From: Microbacterium sp.
GTDB lineage: Bacteria > Actinomycetota > Actinomycetes > Actinomycetales > Microbacteriaceae
Length of the DNA stretch: 64,000 bases
NCBI RefSeq assembly: GCF_017305435.1
Contig: NZ_JAFKIP010000007.1
Span: forward strand, 186,001 to 250,000
Reading direction: 5' to 3'
Positions 6,755 through 27,760 of this stretch are shown piece after piece. The notes beneath the pieces were generated by a model, which saw only the letters and a list, made by a program, of their open reading frames with translations, was not told the origin of the DNA and ran no database searches. Positions within the stretch are counted from its first letter, which is position 1. The number at the start of each line of letters is the position of its first letter. Position numbers and translations under genes: made by a program.

Positions 6755-6830
6755 GCCTCCGTAGCTCAGGGGATAGAGCGTTGGTTTCCGGTACCAAAGG
6801 TCGCAGGTTCGATTCCTGTCGGGGGCACCA
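6755..6830 (+). tRNA. tRNA-Arg (anticodon CCG)
   Basis: Full cloverleaf: acceptor stem GCCTCCG (6755-6761) pairs with CGGGGGC (6820-6826) with one T-G pair; D-arm GCTC..GAGC; anticodon stem TTGGT/ACCAA (6781-6785/6793-6797) with loop TTCCGGT placing CCG at 6788-6790; T-arm with GGTTCGATTCC. Discriminator A at 6827 and an encoded CCA at 6828-6830. It reads the CGG codon. Confidence 0.97.
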
Positions 6831-6946: not shown

Positions 6947-7549
6947 ATGACGCAGCCACTGGCCTCCCTCCCCCGGCAGAATCATCCCGCCGAGGGGCCC
7001 GTCGCCGAACGCTCCGGACGGACGGAGCACTCTTCGTTCTCCGCATCGCTCTCGCCGCAGAGCTTCAAAGACCTCTTCCGCGGGCACCCCGGCGGTGTGG
7101 CCGTGATCACGGCGGACGCGGGAGACGGCCCCGTCGCGCTGACGGCGACGTCGGTGTCGTCGGCGAGCGCGGAGCCGCCGCTGCTGACGTTCTCGATCTC
7201 GGCACTGTCCTCGGCATCCGCGTCGCTCGGCCGCGCGGACACGGTCGTCGTGCATCTTCTCGATGCGGACGACCTCGACATCGCGAAGCTGGGCGCGACG
7301 AGCGGGATCGACCGCTTCGCGGACACGAGCCGTTGGACGCGCCTCGCGACCGGAGAGCCCGTGTTCGCGAAGGTCCGCGCGTGGGTGCGGTGCGCCGTCA
7401 TCGGCCGCATGGAGGCCGGCTCGTCCACCGTGATCGCCGCGCACGCGCTCGAAGCGACGATCAGCCGCGGGAACGACGACGAGACAAACGCGCTCGCCTA
7501 TCACAACCGCACGTGGCACCGCCTCGACGAGCGGTCGCGGCTGTCGTGA
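6947..7549 (+). CDS. flavin reductase family protein
   Basis: 200 aa. After a disordered 35-residue N-terminus comes the FMN-binding split-barrel of flavin:NAD(P)H reductases: SFKDLFRGHPGGVAVIT, then LTATSVSSASAEPPLLTFSI (the flavin-phosphate loop) and a C-terminal HNRTWHRLDE. Such proteins supply reduced FMN to two-component LLM monooxygenases, several of which lie nearby. First gene of the plus-strand operon up to 12849; the next start follows after 7 bp. Confidence 0.88.
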   Translation: MTQPLASLPRQNHPAEGPVAERSGRTEHSSFSASLSPQSFKDLFRGHPGGVAVITADAGDGPVALTATSVSSASAEPPLLTFSISALSSASASLGRADTVVVHLLDADDLDIAKLGATSGIDRFADTSRWTRLATGEPVFAKVRAWVRCAVIGRMEAGSSTVIAAHALEATISRGNDDETNALAYHNRTWHRLDERSRLS

Positions 7550-7556
7550 GCCGCAC

Positions 7557-8747
7557 GTGACGTCGCTCCTGGAGCGGGAGGCCGTCGAGTTCACGCGAGA
7601 CCTCATCCGGATCGACAGCGTGAACACCGGCGTCGCCGCGACGATCGGCGACGGCGAGACCCGCGCGGCGCGATACGTCCAGGAACGCCTGGCCGAGGTC
7701 GGCATCACCTCGGAGCTCATCGAGCCCGTCCCCGGCCGCGGGTCGCTCATCGCACGCATCCGCGGCACCGATCCGACCGCCCCCGCACTCCTCGTGCACG
7801 CCCACCTCGACGTGGTCTCCGTCGACGAGGACGACTGGACCCACCCCCCGTTCGGCGGCGACATCGCCGACGGGTTCGTCTACGGCCGCGGCGCGGTCGA
7901 CATGAAGAACTTCGCGGGCACGGTGCTGGCGGTCGTGCGCCACTTCGCCCGTGAGGGCTTCGCGCCCCGCCGCGATCTCGTCCTGGCGTTCATCGCCCTC
8001 GCCCGGCAGTCGAAGTCGCCGCTCGTGAGCAGCGCAGCGTGGCTCTACATCTGGTTCTTCCGCTCGGTCCCCCTCGTCGTCCAGCTCGTCGTCTGGTACA
8101 ACCTCGGCTACCTCTACCCGACGCTCGGCCTCGGAACCCCGTTCACGACCGACTTCTGGATCGTGGAGTTCCCGACGGTCCACCTGATCTCGGCGTTCGC
8201 CGCGGGCGTGCTGGGCCTGAGCCTCCACCAGGCCGCGTACTCCGCCGAGATCATCCGCGGCGGTCTCCTCTCGGTCGACCAGGGGCAGCTCGAGGCGGCC
8301 GCCTCCCTCGGCATCCCGCCGCGACGTCGGCTCAGCCGCATCGTGCTTCCGCAGGCGATGCGCTCGATCGTCCCCAACGCGACGAACGAGGTCATCGGGC
8401 TCGTGAAGGGGACGTCGGTGCTGTTCGTCATCGCGATCCCGGAGCTGTTCTACTCGGTGCAGGTGATCTACAACCGCAACAGCAGGGTCATCCCGCTCCT
8501 CCTCGTCGCGGTCGTCTGGTACACGATCATCACGACGATCCTCAGCATCGCGCAGTACTACATCGAACGGCACTACGCCCGCGGGACCGTGCGCGTGCTG
8601 CCCCCGACGCCCGTCCAGCGCGCACGCACGTGGATCTCCACCCAGTGGGCGCGCCTCGGCGACGAATCCGCGCCGGATGCCCGCAGGCAGCCACCGAGCC
8701 GCACGGCCGCCGCCACGGGGACCGACACGACGGGAGACGCGTCATGA
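7557..8747 (+). CDS. in-frame hybrid: truncated M20 peptidase fused to truncated amino-acid ABC permease
   Basis: 396 aa, start GTG. Residues 1-147 are the N-terminus of an M20 metallopeptidase (DLIRIDSVN, HAHLD at 83-85, GRGAVDMKN with the bridging Asp at 115). Exactly where M20 proteins continue with the catalytic DEE pair, the sequence switches at the shared stretch LVLAFIALAR (codons 7977-8006) into an amino-acid ABC permease (HisM type) lacking roughly its first 80-100 residues: SAAWLYIWFFRSVPL, then the EAA loop LEAAASLGIPPRRR at about 246-259, and a basic C-terminal tail. The M20 half lacks catalytic Glu, dimerisation domain and final ligand; the permease lacks its first membrane segments. 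Probably two neighbouring genes joined by a deletion, and both activities lost or impaired, though an assembly collapse is possible. Overlaps the ATPase start by ATGA. Confidence 0.85.
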   Translation: MTSLLEREAVEFTRDLIRIDSVNTGVAATIGDGETRAARYVQERLAEVGITSELIEPVPGRGSLIARIRGTDPTAPALLVHAHLDVVSVDEDDWTHPPFGGDIADGFVYGRGAVDMKNFAGTVLAVVRHFAREGFAPRRDLVLAFIALARQSKSPLVSSAAWLYIWFFRSVPLVVQLVVWYNLGYLYPTLGLGTPFTTDFWIVEFPTVHLISAFAAGVLGLSLHQAAYSAEIIRGGLLSVDQGQLEAAASLGIPPRRRLSRIVLPQAMRSIVPNATNEVIGLVKGTSVLFVIAIPELFYSVQVIYNRNSRVIPLLLVAVVWYTIITTILSIAQYYIERHYARGTVRVLPPTPVQRARTWISTQWARLGDESAPDARRQPPSRTAAATGTDTTGDAS

Positions 8748-9520
8748 GCGCCCAGACCACGGGTCTCGTCGAGATCCACAACGTCCACAAGTCCTACGGC
8801 GGGGTCGAGGTGCTCGGCGGGATCGACCTGACGATCGCTCCGGGCGAGGTCGTCGCGATCCTCGGGGCGAGCGGATCGGGCAAGTCCACGCTCCTGCGGG
8901 CCATCAACCATCTCGAGAGGGTGGATGCCGGTTCGGTGACGGTCGACGGCGAGCTCATCGGGTACGAGAAGCGTGGCGGGAAGCTCTACGAGCTCCGAGA
9001 GAAGCAGGTGCTGGCCCGCCGCACCCAGATCGGGATCGTCTTCCAGAACTTCAACCTGTTTCCGCACCTGACGGCGCTCGAGAACGTCGCGGAGGCCCCG
9101 ATCGCGCTCGGCCGGCACACGAAGGATGACGCCCGCGAGCTCGCACTGGGACTGCTCGACCGTGTCGGGCTCGCGGACAAGGCGGGCCACTATCCGCGGC
9201 AGCTCTCCGGTGGACAGCAGCAGCGCGTCGCGATCGCCCGCGCCCTCGCGCTCACGCCCAAGGTGATCCTCTTCGACGAGCCGACGAGCGCCCTCGATCC
9301 GGAGCTCGTGGGCGAGGTGCTCGACGTCATCCGCGACCTCGCCCAGCTCGGCACGACGCTCGTCATCGTGACCCACGAGATCGGGTTCGCGCGGGAGATC
9401 GCCGACCGCGTCGTCTTCCTCGACGGCGGCCGCGTCATCGAACAGGGTCCCGCGTCGGAGGTCCTCGTCAGCCCGCGGCATCCGCGCGTGCGCGAGTTCC
9501 TCGCGAAAGTCCTCTCCTAG
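8744..9520 (+). CDS. amino-acid ABC transporter ATP-binding protein
   Basis: 258 aa ATPase of the polar amino acid (GlnQ/HisP) type. Walker A GASGSGKST near residue 44, Q-loop VFQNFNLFPHLTALEN, signature LSGGQQQRVAIARAL, Walker B VILFDEPTSALDPE, and H-loop IVTHE. Starts within the stop of the hybrid permease (ATGA), so coupled to it. With the binding protein it would energise uptake of an amino acid or S-substituted cysteine derivative; without an intact permease in the window the importer may be inactive or use a permease encoded elsewhere. Confidence 0.93.
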   Translation: MSAQTTGLVEIHNVHKSYGGVEVLGGIDLTIAPGEVVAILGASGSGKSTLLRAINHLERVDAGSVTVDGELIGYEKRGGKLYELREKQVLARRTQIGIVFQNFNLFPHLTALENVAEAPIALGRHTKDDARELALGLLDRVGLADKAGHYPRQLSGGQQQRVAIARALALTPKVILFDEPTSALDPELVGEVLDVIRDLAQLGTTLVIVTHEIGFAREIADRVVFLDGGRVIEQGPASEVLVSPRHPRVREFLAKVLS

Positions 9521-9560: not shown

Positions 9561-10553
9561 ATGGCCATCAGCAAGAAGCAGGGCATCGCGATCGGCGTCG
9601 GTGTCGTCGCCGTCGCGGCGGTCGTCGGCGGCATCATCGCCGCCGTCACGGCCAACGGAGCGGCGACCGCCGCCGAACCCACGCCGAGCGCAACGAGCGC
9701 GAACGTCGCGACCGCCGACATCCAGTGGGTCCATCTCGACGAGCCCGTCCAGAAGGCGGTCGACGCGCTCGAGTCGAGCGGGTTCAGCCCCGTCACGCCG
9801 GGCAAGCTCACCGTCGCGGTCGCGGCCTACCAGCCCCCGCTCGCCTACATCCCCGAGGGCGAGACGCTCCCGGCGGGAAGCGAGCCCAACATCGGATCGC
9901 TCATCGCCGAGGCACTCGGACTCGAGTACAACCCGGTCGTCGTGGCGTGGGCGGACTGGCCCCTCGGCATCCAGTCGGGCAAGTACGACCTCATCACCTC
10001 GAACGTGACGGTCACGGAGGAGCGCAAGGAGCTCTACGACTTCGCGAGCTACCGCGTCGACCTCCTCGGCTTCTATGTCAAGTCCGACAGCAAGATCACC
10101 AAGATCGAGGACGCCGAGGACATCTCGGGGCTCAAGATCATCGTCGGCTCCGGCACCAACCAGGAGAAGGTGCTGCTCACCTGGAACCAGAAGCTGACCG
10201 ACGAGGGCAAGGCCCCCGCCGAGCTCCAGTACTACGACGACAACGCGGCGGCGACCCTCGCGATCCAGTCGGGCCGCGCGGACGCCACGTTCGGGCCGAA
10301 CGCGAGCGGTGCGTGGGCCGCGAAGGAGACGGGCGACACCCGTCTCGTCGGGACCGTGTCCGGCGGCTGGCCGCTGACGGCGAACATCGCGGCGGCGACC
10401 GCGAAGGGCAACGGTCTCATCGAGCCGGTGCAGATCGCCCTCGACGCGCTCATCCAGGGTGGCCAGTACGACGAGGTCCTGAAGATCTGGGGCCTCGAGA
10501 AGGAGCGGGTCGACACGAGCGAGATCAACCCGCCGGGTCTGCCCAAGTCCTGA
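9561..10553 (+). CDS. amino-acid ABC transporter substrate-binding protein
   Basis: 330 aa, family 3 solute-binding protein. N-terminal KKQ plus a 25-residue hydrophobic stretch, then a Thr/Ser/Pro-rich linker to about residue 55; no lipobox Cys, so it is secreted or anchored by an uncleaved signal. Family features: GKLTVAVAAYQPPLAY, YDLITSNVTVTEERKE, ISGLKIIVGSGTNQE, LAIQSGRADATFG. It lies 40 bp after the ATPase and is followed by a strong hairpin at 10563. Confidence 0.9.
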   Translation: MAISKKQGIAIGVGVVAVAAVVGGIIAAVTANGAATAAEPTPSATSANVATADIQWVHLDEPVQKAVDALESSGFSPVTPGKLTVAVAAYQPPLAYIPEGETLPAGSEPNIGSLIAEALGLEYNPVVVAWADWPLGIQSGKYDLITSNVTVTEERKELYDFASYRVDLLGFYVKSDSKITKIEDAEDISGLKIIVGSGTNQEKVLLTWNQKLTDEGKAPAELQYYDDNAAATLAIQSGRADATFGPNASGAWAAKETGDTRLVGTVSGGWPLTANIAAATAKGNGLIEPVQIALDALIQGGQYDEVLKIWGLEKERVDTSEINPPGLPKS

Positions 10554-10665: not shown

Positions 10666-12849
10666 ATGTCCCGCGTCCCCCTGTCGGTCCTCGACCTGTC
10701 GCCTTTCGGGATCGGCCAGTCCCCCGCGACGGGGCTCCGCACCACGCTCGAGCTGGCGCGCGCCGCGGAGGCGTTCGGCTATCGCCGCTTCTGGCTCGCC
10801 GAGCACCACTTCAACTCCGGCATCGCGGGGTCGGCGCCGCATGTGCTCCTCGCGGCGGTCGCCGCCACCACGGAGCGCATCCGCGTCGGCACCGCGGCGA
10901 CCATCATCGGCAACTACTCACCAGCTCAGGTGGCCGAGGCGATCGGCGTCGTCGCGGCGCTGCACCCGGGCCGCGTCGATCTCGGGATCGGACGATCGGG
11001 AGCGCGCCCACCCGCGCCGGCGCAGGTCGCCGGCGACCGAGAGGTCGACGGGCTGCTCATCCCCGCGGCGACGACGGTCTTCCCCTTCGACGCACCTCGT
11101 TTCGTCGCGCAGGCGCGCGCGCTCGGCCGCGGGGACGACGTCGGCGACCGGTTCGCGGAGGATGTCGCCGACATCCTCGCGTACTTCTCCGGTCCCTCCG
11201 CCGCACCGGGAGGCGTGACCCTGCACGCGACCCCGGCCGAGGGTCAGTCGGTCGAGACCTGGATCCACGGGTCCACACCGGGCCCGAGCGCGCGCCTCGC
11301 GGGCGCGCTGGGGCTTCCCTTCGGCGCGAACTATCACGTGGCGCCGTCGTTCGTCCTCGACGCGATCGCCGCGTACCGATCCGCTTTCCGCCCCGGGCGC
11401 CTCCCCGCACCCCAGGTCATCGTGTCGGTCGACGTCCTGGTCGCCGAAACGGATGCCGAGGCCGAACGCCTCGGAGCCGGGTACGGTCGGTGGGTGCACA
11501 GCATCCGCGCCGGCGACGGCGCTGCCCCCTACCCCGCCCCCGACGACGCGGCCGCGGATCCGCTGACGCCCGCAGAGGAGGAGATCGTCCGCGACCGCCT
11601 GCGCACCCGTTTCGTCGGGTCGCCGCACACGGTCGTCGCCCGGCTCGAGACGCTCCAGCGGGTCACGGGCGCCGACGAGCTCCTCGTCACGACGATCGCG
11701 CACGATCCCGCCGACCGCATCGCGTCGTACCGCCTGCTGGCCGACGCCTGGGGCGGGGGCGGGCGAGAGGATGCCGCGGCATCCGACCCCGCCGACGGTG
11801 CGACGACCGGCGACGACGTCACGATCCGTCTGGTCCGCACCGAGGAGTACGCCCGCGCCGGCGAGGTGACGGCGGCGGCGTACATCGCCAGCTACGGGGC
11901 GCTCTCCGATCAGTACCTCACGTCGCTGCGCGACGTCGCGGCCCGCGTGCGCGAGGGCGATGTGTGGGTCGCGACGGACCCCACGGGCGACCTCCTCGGT
12001 ACCGTGTGGGTCTCGCGCCCCAATCGTCCCCTGAACCCCGACATCGGCCGGCCCGGCGAGACCGACTTCCGCCAGCTCGCGGTCGCCCCGCACGCCCGGG
12101 GCCGCGGCATCGGCGAGGCGCTGACCCGGCACGTGATCGCACTCGCCGCCGAACGCGGCTCGCACCGGGTCGTCATGAACTCGGGGCCGGAGATGACCGG
12201 GGCGCACGCGCTGTACACCAAGCTCGGATTCCGGCGTCTGCCCGAGCGCGAACAGGAGCGCGAACTGGAACCCGGCCGCGTCGTGACCCTCCTCGCCTTC
12301 GGCTACGACCTCGACGCGGCGAACGACGGTGCGGCATCCGCGGCATCCTGGCGCATCGAGCACGTCGCATGGGACGACCCGCGCGCCGAGGCGCTGCGGG
12401 AGCGGATGGATGCCGAGGTCGGCCCTCGTTACGCCGACGCGTTCTCCGCCGCCGACGCGGATGCCGCAGCGCACGCGTTCTCGATCGACCCGGCGACGAT
12501 CGTCGCGACGATCATCGCGACGGATCGGGGTGGCGCTCCGCTCGGCCACGCGGCGCTGCGCGACCTCGCGCACGACGGCACGCGCGACCTCGAGATCAAG
12601 CGGTTCTACGTGCATCCGCGCGCACGAGGACTCGGGCTCAGTCGGGCGCTCCTTGCCGAGCTCGAGCGCATCGGCCGCGAGCGCGGCGCGCCGCGGCTCG
12701 TCCTGCAGACGGGAGATCGTCAGCACGACGCCGTCGTCCTGTACGAGAAGGCGGGCTACGCGCGCATCGCACCGTTCGAGCCCTACACTCCCTTCGCGCT
12801 CTCGCGCTGCTTCGCGAAGGAGCTCACCGCCGCGGCGGCCGTCCCCTGA
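10666..12849 (+). CDS. three-domain LLM flavin monooxygenase - GNAT - GNAT fusion
   Basis: 727 aa. Residues 1-365 are a luciferase-like, MsnO8-type flavin oxidoreductase (LSVLDLSPFGIGQSPATGL, RFWLAEHHFN, RIRVGTAATIIGNYSP, GRVDLGIGRSG). A short Ala/Asp/Gly linker leads to GNAT domain 1 at about 382-548 with acetyl-CoA loop VAPHARGRGIGEA and the closing ALYTKLGFRRL. GNAT domain 2 spans about 561-727 (VHPRARGLGLSRA, VVLYEKAGYAR). Monooxygenase and N-acetyltransferase are separate proteins in Bacillus yxe/snd organosulfur pathways, so one chain here would both acetylate and oxidise a substrate; that is inference. ATG chosen because GGAGAG lies seven bases upstream. Last gene of the plus operon; a hairpin overlaps the stop. 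Confidence 0.85.
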   Translation: MSRVPLSVLDLSPFGIGQSPATGLRTTLELARAAEAFGYRRFWLAEHHFNSGIAGSAPHVLLAAVAATTERIRVGTAATIIGNYSPAQVAEAIGVVAALHPGRVDLGIGRSGARPPAPAQVAGDREVDGLLIPAATTVFPFDAPRFVAQARALGRGDDVGDRFAEDVADILAYFSGPSAAPGGVTLHATPAEGQSVETWIHGSTPGPSARLAGALGLPFGANYHVAPSFVLDAIAAYRSAFRPGRLPAPQVIVSVDVLVAETDAEAERLGAGYGRWVHSIRAGDGAAPYPAPDDAAADPLTPAEEEIVRDRLRTRFVGSPHTVVARLETLQRVTGADELLVTTIAHDPADRIASYRLLADAWGGGGREDAAASDPADGATTGDDVTIRLVRTEEYARAGEVTAAAYIASYGALSDQYLTSLRDVAARVREGDVWVATDPTGDLLGTVWVSRPNRPLNPDIGRPGETDFRQLAVAPHARGRGIGEALTRHVIALAAERGSHRVVMNSGPEMTGAHALYTKLGFRRLPEREQERELEPGRVVTLLAFGYDLDAANDGAASAASWRIEHVAWDDPRAEALRERMDAEVGPRYADAFSAADADAAAHAFSIDPATIVATIIATDRGGAPLGHAALRDLAHDGTRDLEIKRFYVHPRARGLGLSRALLAELERIGRERGAPRLVLQTGDRQHDAVVLYEKAGYARIAPFEPYTPFALSRCFAKELTAAAAVP

Positions 12850-25197: not shown

Positions 25198-26558
25198 CTC
25201 GCCGCGACGGCCGCGTCGACCGCCCGCACGGCCGGCAGCCCCAGCAGGTCGCGGAGCGTCGCGCCCTCTTCGTACGCCTCGCGGTACGAGCCGCGCTCCT
25301 GCAGGAGCGGAACGACACGATCGGCGAACTCGTCGAGGCCATGCGGAGACAGGTGCCCGACGATCGTGAACCCGTCGGTGGCGCGCCCCTGCACGTAGCG
25401 GTCGATCTCCGCCGCGATGTGCTCCGGCGTGCCGACGAACGTGTGCTTCGCCGTCAGCCGGATGACGACCTCGCGGATGCTGAGGTTCTCCGCCGCGCTG
25501 AGCTCGCGAAGACCGGCGATCCGCTTGCGGACGGCCGCGTGGCGATTCGCCCAGCCGTGGTCGGACTCGGCACCGGTCTCCGGCTCGACCTGCGGCAGGG
25601 GGCCGTCGGGGTCGTAGCCGCTCAGGTCGCGCCCCCACACCTGCTCGATGTAGGTCAGGGCCGTCTCGGGCCGCACCTGCTGGAGCGCGATCTCGCGAGA
25701 GCGCTCCTGCGCCTCCGCCGCCGAGTCGCCGATCACGAACGTCGCCGCGGGAAGGATCTTCAGGGACTCCTCGTCGCGGCCGTCCGCCGCCAGGCGACCC
25801 TTCACGTCGTCGTAGAACGCGCGCGCGTCGTCGAACTCGGTGTGGAGCGAGAAGATGACCTCGGCGTGCGCCGCCCCGAAATCGCGCCCATCGGCGGAAT
25901 CGCCCGCCTGGACGATCACGGGGCGTCCCTGCGGCGAACGCGGCACGTCGAACAGGGCGTCGACGTCGAACTGGGCGCCGGTGTGCCGCACCCGCGCGGG
26001 AGCGCCCGGCCGGAGGAATCGCCCCGTCTCGGCATCCGCCACGATGTCCCCGGGCGCCCAGGAGTCCCAGAGCTCCTTCGCGAGCTCCGCGAACTCGGCG
26101 GCACGGGTGTACCGGTCGGCGTGGTCGAGGAAGCCGCCGCGGCGGAAGTTCGCGCCGTGGAAGGCGTCGGAGCTCGTCACGGCGTTCCACCCCGCCCGCC
26201 CCGCGGACAGCCAGTCGAGGGTCGCGAGCTCGCGAGCGAGTTCGTACGGCTCGTTGAACGTCGTGTTGAGCGTGCCGACGAGCCCCACGTGGTCGGTGAC
26301 GGCGGCAAGCGCCGCGAGGATCGAGAGCGTGTTCGGGCGGCCGACGACGTCGCGCCCGTGGATGCGGCCGCGATGCTCGCGCAGCCGCAGACCTTCTGCG
26401 AGGAAGACGTAGTCGAACAGACCCTTCTCGGCGGTGCGCCCGAAGTACTCGAACGAGGAGAAGTCGATCTGGCTGCCGGAGTGCGCGTCGTTCCACACCG
26501 TCGTGTTGTTCACGCCGGGGAAGTGGGCGGCGAGATGGATCTGACGGGGACGGGTCAT
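25194..26558 (-). CDS. LLM monooxygenase, NtaA/SnaA/DszA family
   Basis: 454 aa. Typical NtaA/DszA signatures: NNTTVWNDAHSGSQIDFSSFEYF, LFDYVFLAEG, LNTTFNEPYELARELATLDWLSAGRAGWNAVTSSD (the FMN-binding and family-specific block), PRSPQGRPVIVQAGDSADGRDFGAAHAEVIF, and TFVGTPEHIAAEIDRYV near the C-terminus. Family members cleave C-S, C-N or S-O bonds of small substrates (nitrilotriacetate, dibenzothiophene sulfone, S-methylcysteine derivatives) with FMNH2 from a reductase. ATG 26558 overlaps the upstream LLM stop. Confidence 0.92.
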   Translation of the reverse strand: MTRPRQIHLAAHFPGVNNTTVWNDAHSGSQIDFSSFEYFGRTAEKGLFDYVFLAEGLRLREHRGRIHGRDVVGRPNTLSILAALAAVTDHVGLVGTLNTTFNEPYELARELATLDWLSAGRAGWNAVTSSDAFHGANFRRGGFLDHADRYTRAAEFAELAKELWDSWAPGDIVADAETGRFLRPGAPARVRHTGAQFDVDALFDVPRSPQGRPVIVQAGDSADGRDFGAAHAEVIFSLHTEFDDARAFYDDVKGRLAADGRDEESLKILPAATFVIGDSAAEAQERSREIALQQVRPETALTYIEQVWGRDLSGYDPDGPLPQVEPETGAESDHGWANRHAAVRKRIAGLRELSAAENLSIREVVIRLTAKHTFVGTPEHIAAEIDRYVQGRATDGFTIVGHLSPHGLDEFADRVVPLLQERGSYREAYEEGATLRDLLGLPAVRAVDAAVAAR

Positions 26559-27760
26559 GACGAGACCTTCTCTCGGAGTGGGCGGGATGCCGGACGCTCG
26601 AGCCCCAGACGCCCGCGCAACGACACCCGGTCGTCGCGGCGCAGGCCCCCGAAGGAGTCGAGGAGCGGGAGGACGCGTTCGGCGATCGCGACGACGTCGC
26701 GCGGCTGACGGGCCGGGCGGAGGCGGACGCCGTCGACACCGGATGCCGCGAGGGCGCGGATCTCGTCGACGACGTGCAGCGGCGTGCCGACGACGTAGCG
26801 CGCGTCCGACGTGAACGGCGCCCCGGCGAGGTCGTCGAGGCGCGCGGCCGCATCCCGTGCCGCGGAGGCCGTCTCCTCGACGAGCACGACGAGGTCGGCG
26901 AACACCCGCAGCCGCTCGTGACGTCGGTGCACGTGCGCCACGGCCTGATCGAGCTCGGCGAGGATGCCGGTGGCCGAGCCCTCGTCGTGCGGTGTGACGA
27001 AGACGACGTCGGCGCTCTCGGCGGCCAGGAGATACGGCACGCGCTGGTGAGCGAGGACCGCGATGAGCGGCTGGCCCTGCGGCGAGCGCGGCACGATCGA
27101 GGCCCCCTCGACCGCGAAGAACTCCCCCTCGAACCGCGCGGGGTGCACGCGATCGGGGTCGAGGAACAGGCCCCGCGCCTCGTCGCGGACGATCGCCTCG
27201 TCCTCCCACGAGTCCCACAGCCGGCGGAGCACCTCGGCGACCTCGCCCGTCTCACGGAACGCCGCGAGGAACTCGGGAGCGTCCTCGACGCGGAGCGAGG
27301 CGGGGAGGCCATCCGGGCCGGATGCGCGGCGGCCGAAGTTCGCCCGCTCGGCCGGCGACGACCCGGCGACGAGCCGCACCCCCGCCCGTCCGCGACTCGC
27401 GAAGTCGAGGGTCTGGATGCCGGTCGCGACGTGGAAAGGCTCGGTGTGGGCCGTCGTCACGGTGGGGATGAGCCCGATGCGCTGCGTCGACGGCGCCGCG
27501 TACGCGGCGATCAGAACGGCGTCGAGCCGGCCGCGCACGCGTCCCGCGGCGGGCTCGTCGGCCGATTCGAAGCGATCGGTGAAGCTCAGCGCGTCTTCGA
27601 TCGTGGCGAGCACGATGCCGGCGCGATCGGCGGTCTCGAGGAGTGCCCGCCAATACGCGGGACTCTGCAGGTCGAGCGGCGTCGCGGAAGGATCACGCCA
27701 GGCGGCGGGATGCCAGCCGGCGCGGTCGAGGGCGACGGCGAGGTGTACAGGGGCTGTCAT
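26555..27760 (-). CDS. LLM-class flavin-dependent oxidoreductase
   Basis: 401 aa, second and more divergent NtaA-like enzyme (LAVALDRAGWHPAAWR, STQRIGLIPTVTTAHTEPFHVATGIQTLDFASRGRAGVRLV, PRSPQGQPLIAVLAHQ, PLHVVDEIRALAASGVDGVRL). Start ATG 27760 places the barrel's first strand right after the initiator; 23 extra upstream residues are rejected as they look like non-coding sequence. First gene of the four-gene operon to 21725 and divergent from the GNAT gene at 27891. Confidence 0.88.
   Translation of the reverse strand: MTAPVHLAVALDRAGWHPAAWRDPSATPLDLQSPAYWRALLETADRAGIVLATIEDALSFTDRFESADEPAAGRVRGRLDAVLIAAYAAPSTQRIGLIPTVTTAHTEPFHVATGIQTLDFASRGRAGVRLVAGSSPAERANFGRRASGPDGLPASLRVEDAPEFLAAFRETGEVAEVLRRLWDSWEDEAIVRDEARGLFLDPDRVHPARFEGEFFAVEGASIVPRSPQGQPLIAVLAHQRVPYLLAAESADVVFVTPHDEGSATGILAELDQAVAHVHRRHERLRVFADLVVLVEETASAARDAAARLDDLAGAPFTSDARYVVGTPLHVVDEIRALAASGVDGVRLRPARQPRDVVAIAERVLPLLDSFGGLRRDDRVSLRGRLGLERPASRPLREKVSS

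Follow-up and report, generated by a model that had tools for sequence, protein, structure and literature searches.

A frame joining parts of an M20 deacylase gene and an ABC permease gene in a Microbacterium operon, probably created by an in-frame deletion

Organization of the operon and of its chimeric frame

The window analyzed here is a stretch of 64,000 nucleotides (bases 186001 to 250000 of contig 5) from a Microbacterium sp., the host, whose assembly of 3.5 Mb in 10 contigs is rated 100% complete. A tRNA-Arg (CCG) gene at 6755..6830 marks the left edge of an operon on the same, forward strand; such a tRNA gene was also found near argS in all five argS-bearing relatives scanned (L145, L147, L148, L149, and L153). 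It is followed by a flavin reductase-like gene at 6947..7549 (PF01613, E = 2.5e-25, profile positions 2 to 151 of 153), and 7 bases separate the stop codon of that gene from the GTG start of a frame of 396 codons at 7557..8747, which contains no internal stop codon and is the subject of this report. The TGA of the frame (8745 to 8747) overlaps, as ATGA, the ATG (8744 to 8746) of an ABC transporter ATPase gene at 8744..9520, for which the closest NCBIfam profile was a TcyN-type L-cystine ATPase, matched below its cut-off. Downstream lie the genes for a family 3 solute-binding protein of 330 amino acids (9561..10553; PF00497), a length shared by its counterparts in loci L046 and L039, and for a 727-residue luciferase-like monooxygenase fused to two GNAT acetyltransferase domains (10666..12849; PF00296, PF00583 in two stretches, TIGR03558 above cut-off). 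The four frames around the 396-codon frame are open, and each matches its family.

Additional observations were made on the flavin-related genes. The monooxygenase-GNAT fusion has near full-length matches in L046, L048, and L049; for M. hominis (L038) and M. paulum (L039), the search returned the GNAT part alone. Farther downstream, some 12 kb from the operon, the window carries two paired luciferase-like monooxygenase genes (25233 to 27751), which match, at 49% and 38%, a pair that in L046 sits between the M20 and permease genes. The host genome also carries a second flavin reductase gene (contig 5, 41503 to 42024; G000:C5), 72% identical to the operon copy.

The 396-codon frame is chimeric, with the N-terminus of an M20 metallo-deacylase joined in frame to the C-terminal part of an amino acid-type ABC permease. 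Residues 1 to 147 (7557..7997, forward strand) belong to the former, and residues 146 to 396 (7992..8744, forward strand) belong to the latter. Pfam placed Peptidase_M20 (PF01546) at residues 79 to 146 (profile positions 1 to 66 of 206, E = 3.8e-13) and BPD_transp_1 (PF00528) at residues 149 to 340 (profile positions 9 to 182 of 184, E = 9.9e-18, 64.9 bits against a cut-off of 26.4). NCBIfam profiles, all below their curated cut-offs, assigned residues 5 to 147 to an M20 subfamily and the sequence from about residue 141 to cystine-, ectoine-, and glutamine-type permeases. Third-position GC is equal in the two halves, at 0.945 and 0.948.

The M20 half shares 79% identity across 143 residues with the complete M20 protein of genome G058. 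When aligned to full relatives, it keeps the motifs HAHLDVV and GRGAVDMK, to which we assign the metal-binding His-x-Asp and the Asp that follows. It leaves the family at the A of ADEE (A147 in the L046 M20), and the Glu pair, which we take to be catalytic, is the next part lost. The M20_dimer domain is also absent, whereas the L046 relative covers profile positions 1 to 205 and has M20_dimer in addition. The chimera therefore shares with M20 deacylases of the ArgE/DapE/ACY1 type (best NCBIfam profile NF005913, below cut-off) the N-terminal catalytic part with HAHLD and GRGAVDMK and, unlike them, lacks everything from the DEE motif on.

The permease half is 94% identical over 224 residues to positions 98 to 321 of the M. 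paulum permease, and the hydrophobic segments of that protein at 37 to 55 and 81 to 99 have no equivalent in it. Alignment to ArtQ (4yms) likewise indicated that the membrane segment at ArtQ residues 16 to 41 is lost. The C-terminal membrane segments and most of BPD_transp_1 are common to the chimera and to His/Glu/cystine-type permeases (ArtQ, NF011680, EhuC), but in the chimera a soluble M20 half stands in place of the two N-terminal membrane segments. The preliminary description of this DNA had claimed a single frame of two families, an M20 half ending just before the Glu pair, a permease half starting after the first membrane segments, and a preserved frame with an intact ATPase overlap, and our analysis confirmed all of these. 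Because the M20 active site is incomplete and the permease lacks its first two membrane segments, both activities have most likely been lost; the product would most likely be inactive as a deacylase and as a permease, and the ATPase and the binding protein would now be orphans.

The junction and the separate genes of relatives

DNA alignments with relatives of both parent genes placed the junction at ATCGCC (7992..7997, forward strand), of which at least TCGCC fits both. Agreement with M20 relatives runs to GCGTTCxTCGCC (GCCTTC in L151), and agreement with permease relatives starts at xTCGCC. The site reads ATCGCC in the M. hominis permease and CTCGCC in all four aligned M20 relatives. As read from these alignments, five bases are common to both parents; if the M20 sequence now lost had ATC here, the number rises to six. 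It had been proposed earlier that a deletion occurred between short homologous stretches and that LVLAFIA was common to both parents. A short shared stretch, (A)TCGCC, was indeed found, but the alignments rejected LVLAFIA in this role: LVLAF is purely M20-like (relatives have DLVFAFLADEE or DLVLAFLADEE), permeases read GTLLALAR or GTLIALAR at this position, and only (A)TCGCC fits both.

We searched 366 genomes of the genus, one per species and including the host, with the chimera at E = 1e-110. Matches were obtained in 65 genomes, the host and 64 others. The host matched at 100% over residues 1 to 396, and in each of the 64 others the match started at query residue 132 or later. The fused gene, whose presence in relatives had been named beforehand as evidence against the deletion reading, was absent at this threshold from all 64 genomes with a close permease, and at the same threshold none of the 365 genomes other than the host had a match spanning both halves. 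The M20 part alone, searched at E = 1e-55, matched in 69 of the 366 genomes (the host and 68 others). Pairing of the two match lists gave both matches in 49 of the 64 genomes; in the remaining 15, an M20 match at E = 1e-55 was not found. As had been predicted, relatives carry separate M20 and permease genes; in 42 of the 64 genomes, the two share a strand and a contig and are no more than 12 kb apart. The distance between the points corresponding to the junction ranged from 1294 to 10690 bases in those 42 and fell within the predicted 1.2 to 1.8 kb in 28. The two genes were further apart than 12 kb or on different contigs in 7 genomes, among them G105, where the separation would shrink to about 4.4 kb were its 3934357-base contig circular.

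A GTDB-wide scan gave a similar picture among the best 80 of 407 relatives, of which 45 (L038 to L082) are named Microbacterium or Microbacteriaceae. The permease aligned to that of L046 from residue 23 or earlier in all 45 named loci. A full-length M20 gene lay upstream on the same strand in 27 and a partial one in 3 (L048 and L060, both cut by an end of the available DNA, and L057); no M20 was found upstream of the permease in 11 loci for which 5 kb or more of upstream DNA was available, and in the other 4 the available upstream DNA was shorter than that. Junction-point distances, measurable in 28 of the named loci, were 1305 to 5942 bases. An apparent stop was seen inside the permease alignments of L041 and L075.

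Two matches seemed to reach into the M20 half and were considered as second chimeras: that of L060 (residues 99 to 373) and that of G004 (residues 44 to 346, 39%). The former is an ordinary permease with its own N-terminus, beginning after the end of a separate M20 gene. The latter is a permease of distant relationship; when the M20 half was searched by itself, no match in G004 was better than E = 0.3. Both extensions are the permease's own N-terminus, loosely aligned and without M20 similarity. These matches were the sole apparent support for an old natural fusion of M20 and permease domains in a known architecture. With the extensions so explained, no fused gene among the 64 genomes at E = 1e-110, and none confirmed among the best 80 of the 407 relatives GTDB-wide, we give such a fusion practically no credence. 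Titles and opening lines of abstracts in a set of papers on gene fusion by in-frame deletion contained no report of the present case.

The nearest operons and the extent of the proposed deletion

The closest relatives differ from gene to gene in our trees, in which some genomes appear twice. In the ATPase and binding protein trees, the host grouped with M. hominis (G080) and M. paulum (G217), with support of 0.86 and 0.91. The permease tree united these three with PS02068 (G311) (0.82) and placed the host nearest to G311 (0.71), and the M20 tree grouped the host with G058 and M. radiodurans (G145) (0.81).

One M. hominis contig ends in the order argS, transglutaminase-like gene, GDSL-like gene, tRNA-Arg (CCG), M20 remnant. 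Another starts with a reverse-strand rhodanese gene, followed by permease, ATPase, binding protein, and GNAT genes and then by the gene order of the window. The two ends (L148 on the M20-remnant side and L152 on the rhodanese side) share an 18-base inverted match, a possible hairpin that may have broken the M. hominis assembly. They are probably neighbors, in which case the operon would occupy the tRNA-Arg site that it has in the window. M. hominis itself has a broken M20 gene (L148:8683-9049): just downstream of the tRNA gene, the N-terminal 29 M20 codons continue directly into DLVLAFLA and the remainder is short and in another frame, so that the damage comprises internal deletions and a shift of frame. 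M. paulum has flavin reductase, reverse-strand rhodanese, and permease genes in that order, and no M20 gene was found between flavin reductase and permease or upstream of the permease. On this gene-level comparison, three related lineages are without a working M20 beside the permease, in three different ways.

By argS, the closest genome to the host is G311 (90% DNA identity), which has intact genes at another site, with the operon on another contig. The 9.8 kb that follow its tRNA-Arg gene yielded no operon gene, and G311 was rejected as a guide to the state before the deletion. Because the G311 operon is not located after the tRNA-Arg gene, M. hominis was used for the site comparison. Thus, tRNA-Arg (CCG) adjoins the operon in the host and, by the reconstruction above, in M. 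hominis, but not in G311, G047, M. paulum, or G169, the first two of which are nearer to the host in argS. The tRNA-Arg (CCG) site may be an insertion hot spot.

The chimera would be explained by one deletion of roughly 1.3 to 2 kb at five to six shared bases with the frame kept, an outcome expected one time in three by chance. Such an event would have removed the C-terminal two-thirds of the M20 deacylase gene, the first 100 or so codons of the permease gene, and whatever lay between them, perhaps a reverse-strand rhodanese gene. Since M. hominis and M. paulum have a rhodanese gene just upstream of the permease, more than two genes may be gone from the host, in whose genome a search run without a positive control found no rhodanese gene. 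The deletion would have measured about 1.9 kb with a rhodanese gene in between and about 1.3 to 1.4 kb from a direct M20-permease order. The exact arrangement before the deletion was not found in any relative; M. hominis and M. paulum, the closest in their ATPase and binding protein, lack an intact M20 beside the permease.

Alternatively, both genes could be intact in the organism, the assembler having skipped 1.3 to 2 kb. The junction is known from the finished assembly of one strain, and the two M. hominis contig breaks, one inside the M20 remnant and the other next to the rhodanese gene, which carry the 18-base inverted repeat, indicate that this stretch can be hard to assemble. However, five to six shared bases are far below the usual assembler overlap, and a join of this kind inside a long contig would be an unusual error; the junction lies near base 194,000 of a contig that is 250,000 bases or longer, in the 10-contig assembly described above. 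Nor was the missing sequence found left over. The permease N-terminus had no counterpart elsewhere in the host assembly (best match E = 0.09, 25%), and the M20 C-terminus gave only paralogs at 45% and 37% and one partial match at 28%. These data favor a deletion in the organism over a collapsed assembly, which we consider improbable. A single in-frame deletion at microhomology, inactivating both deacylase and permease in the organism, is in our judgment very probably what took place.

Constraint on the frame and decay of the operon

The permease half (221 to 223 codons) was compared among the host, M. hominis, and M. paulum, with the changes on each branch derived by hand from pair counts. Nonsynonymous and synonymous changes were 9.85 and 32.2 for the host, 10.15 and 35.9 for M. 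hominis, and 8.15 and 27.9 for M. paulum; from the implied site numbers, about 90 nonsynonymous changes would be expected per 32 synonymous ones on a branch without constraint. Therefore, the frame has been unconstrained only for a small last part of the host branch, or it is still constrained. At positions of the permease half that are steady in the outgroups, the host had 4 amino acid changes of its own, one of which adjoins the junction; M. paulum had 3 such changes and M. hominis had 2. The M20 half, for which there is no sister sequence (M. paulum lacks the gene and M. hominis has a remnant), was compared pairwise only. It had 11 host-only changes, 3 of which affect positions invariant among all the other sequences compared, and its pairwise dN/dS of 0.196 to 0.342 lies within the range of other pairs (0.113 to 0.355).

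The unrelaxed permease half may be read in two ways. The chimera could be a functional new protein under selection, either a shortened permease that has an M20-derived cytoplasmic front and assembles with the ATPase encoded by the overlapping gene, or a leader through which translation of the ATPase stays coupled. The retained frame, the near-complete BPD_transp_1 domain (9 to 182 of 184), the lack of excess amino acid changes in the permease half, and the ATGA overlap are all consistent with such a role. However, the chimera was found in one genome only, the membrane segment aligned to ArtQ 16 to 41 and the M20 Glu pair are both lost, and a recent event accounts equally well for the unrelaxed rate, making a selected function very unlikely in our view. 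Of the two readings, a recent deletion is the simpler. Pseudogenes formed by deletion and fusion are a known general kind in decaying operons, with neighbors joined by loss between short shared bases, as in the host. The chimera differs from these in being in frame and hence able to yield a hybrid protein. Automatic annotation may label it an M20 peptidase or a permease, and it is most likely neither.

The operon would serve N-acetylation, flavin-dependent C-S cleavage, deacetylation, and ABC uptake of S-substituted cysteine, with its flavin reductase presumably supplying reduced flavin. The monooxygenase, acetyltransferase, and ABC genes are present in the window by family match only. In the excerpts of PMC9706529 and PMC12757645, the yxe (scm) locus of B. 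subtilis is described as salvaging S-(2-succino)cysteine by acetylation, breakdown, and deacetylation, and PMC9706529 defines a yxe/scm-like locus by the clustering of at least three of five component kinds. As far as these excerpts go, the two loci have in common an acetyltransferase, a flavin mononucleotide (FMN)-dependent monooxygenase, an M20 deacetylase, and a three-part ABC transporter, a correspondence drawn at the level of gene kinds rather than of orthology to YxeK, YxeL, and YxeP. On the same basis, three features set the window apart from yxe (scm): the fusion of its monooxygenase to two GNAT domains, the presence of a flavin reductase, and the broken state of its deacylase and permease genes. 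We infer that the operon resembles S-substituted-cysteine salvage, as a likeness rather than as membership.

The broken M20 gene of M. hominis and the missing one of M. paulum, besides the chimera of the host, suggest that the M20 deacylase step is dispensable in these lineages. This is in line with the redundancy of N-acetylcysteine deacetylases in B. subtilis stated in the excerpt of PMC12757645, which may be a reason why loss of the M20 gene was tolerated. Even so, an operon deprived of its permease would no longer import through its own system. The locus would thus offer a clean snapshot of operon decay, in which one deletion struck both the deacylase and the importer permease and left the frame open. 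The event would be of an ordinary kind and the hybrid frame its by-product, an example of how a nutrient-salvage gene set decays.
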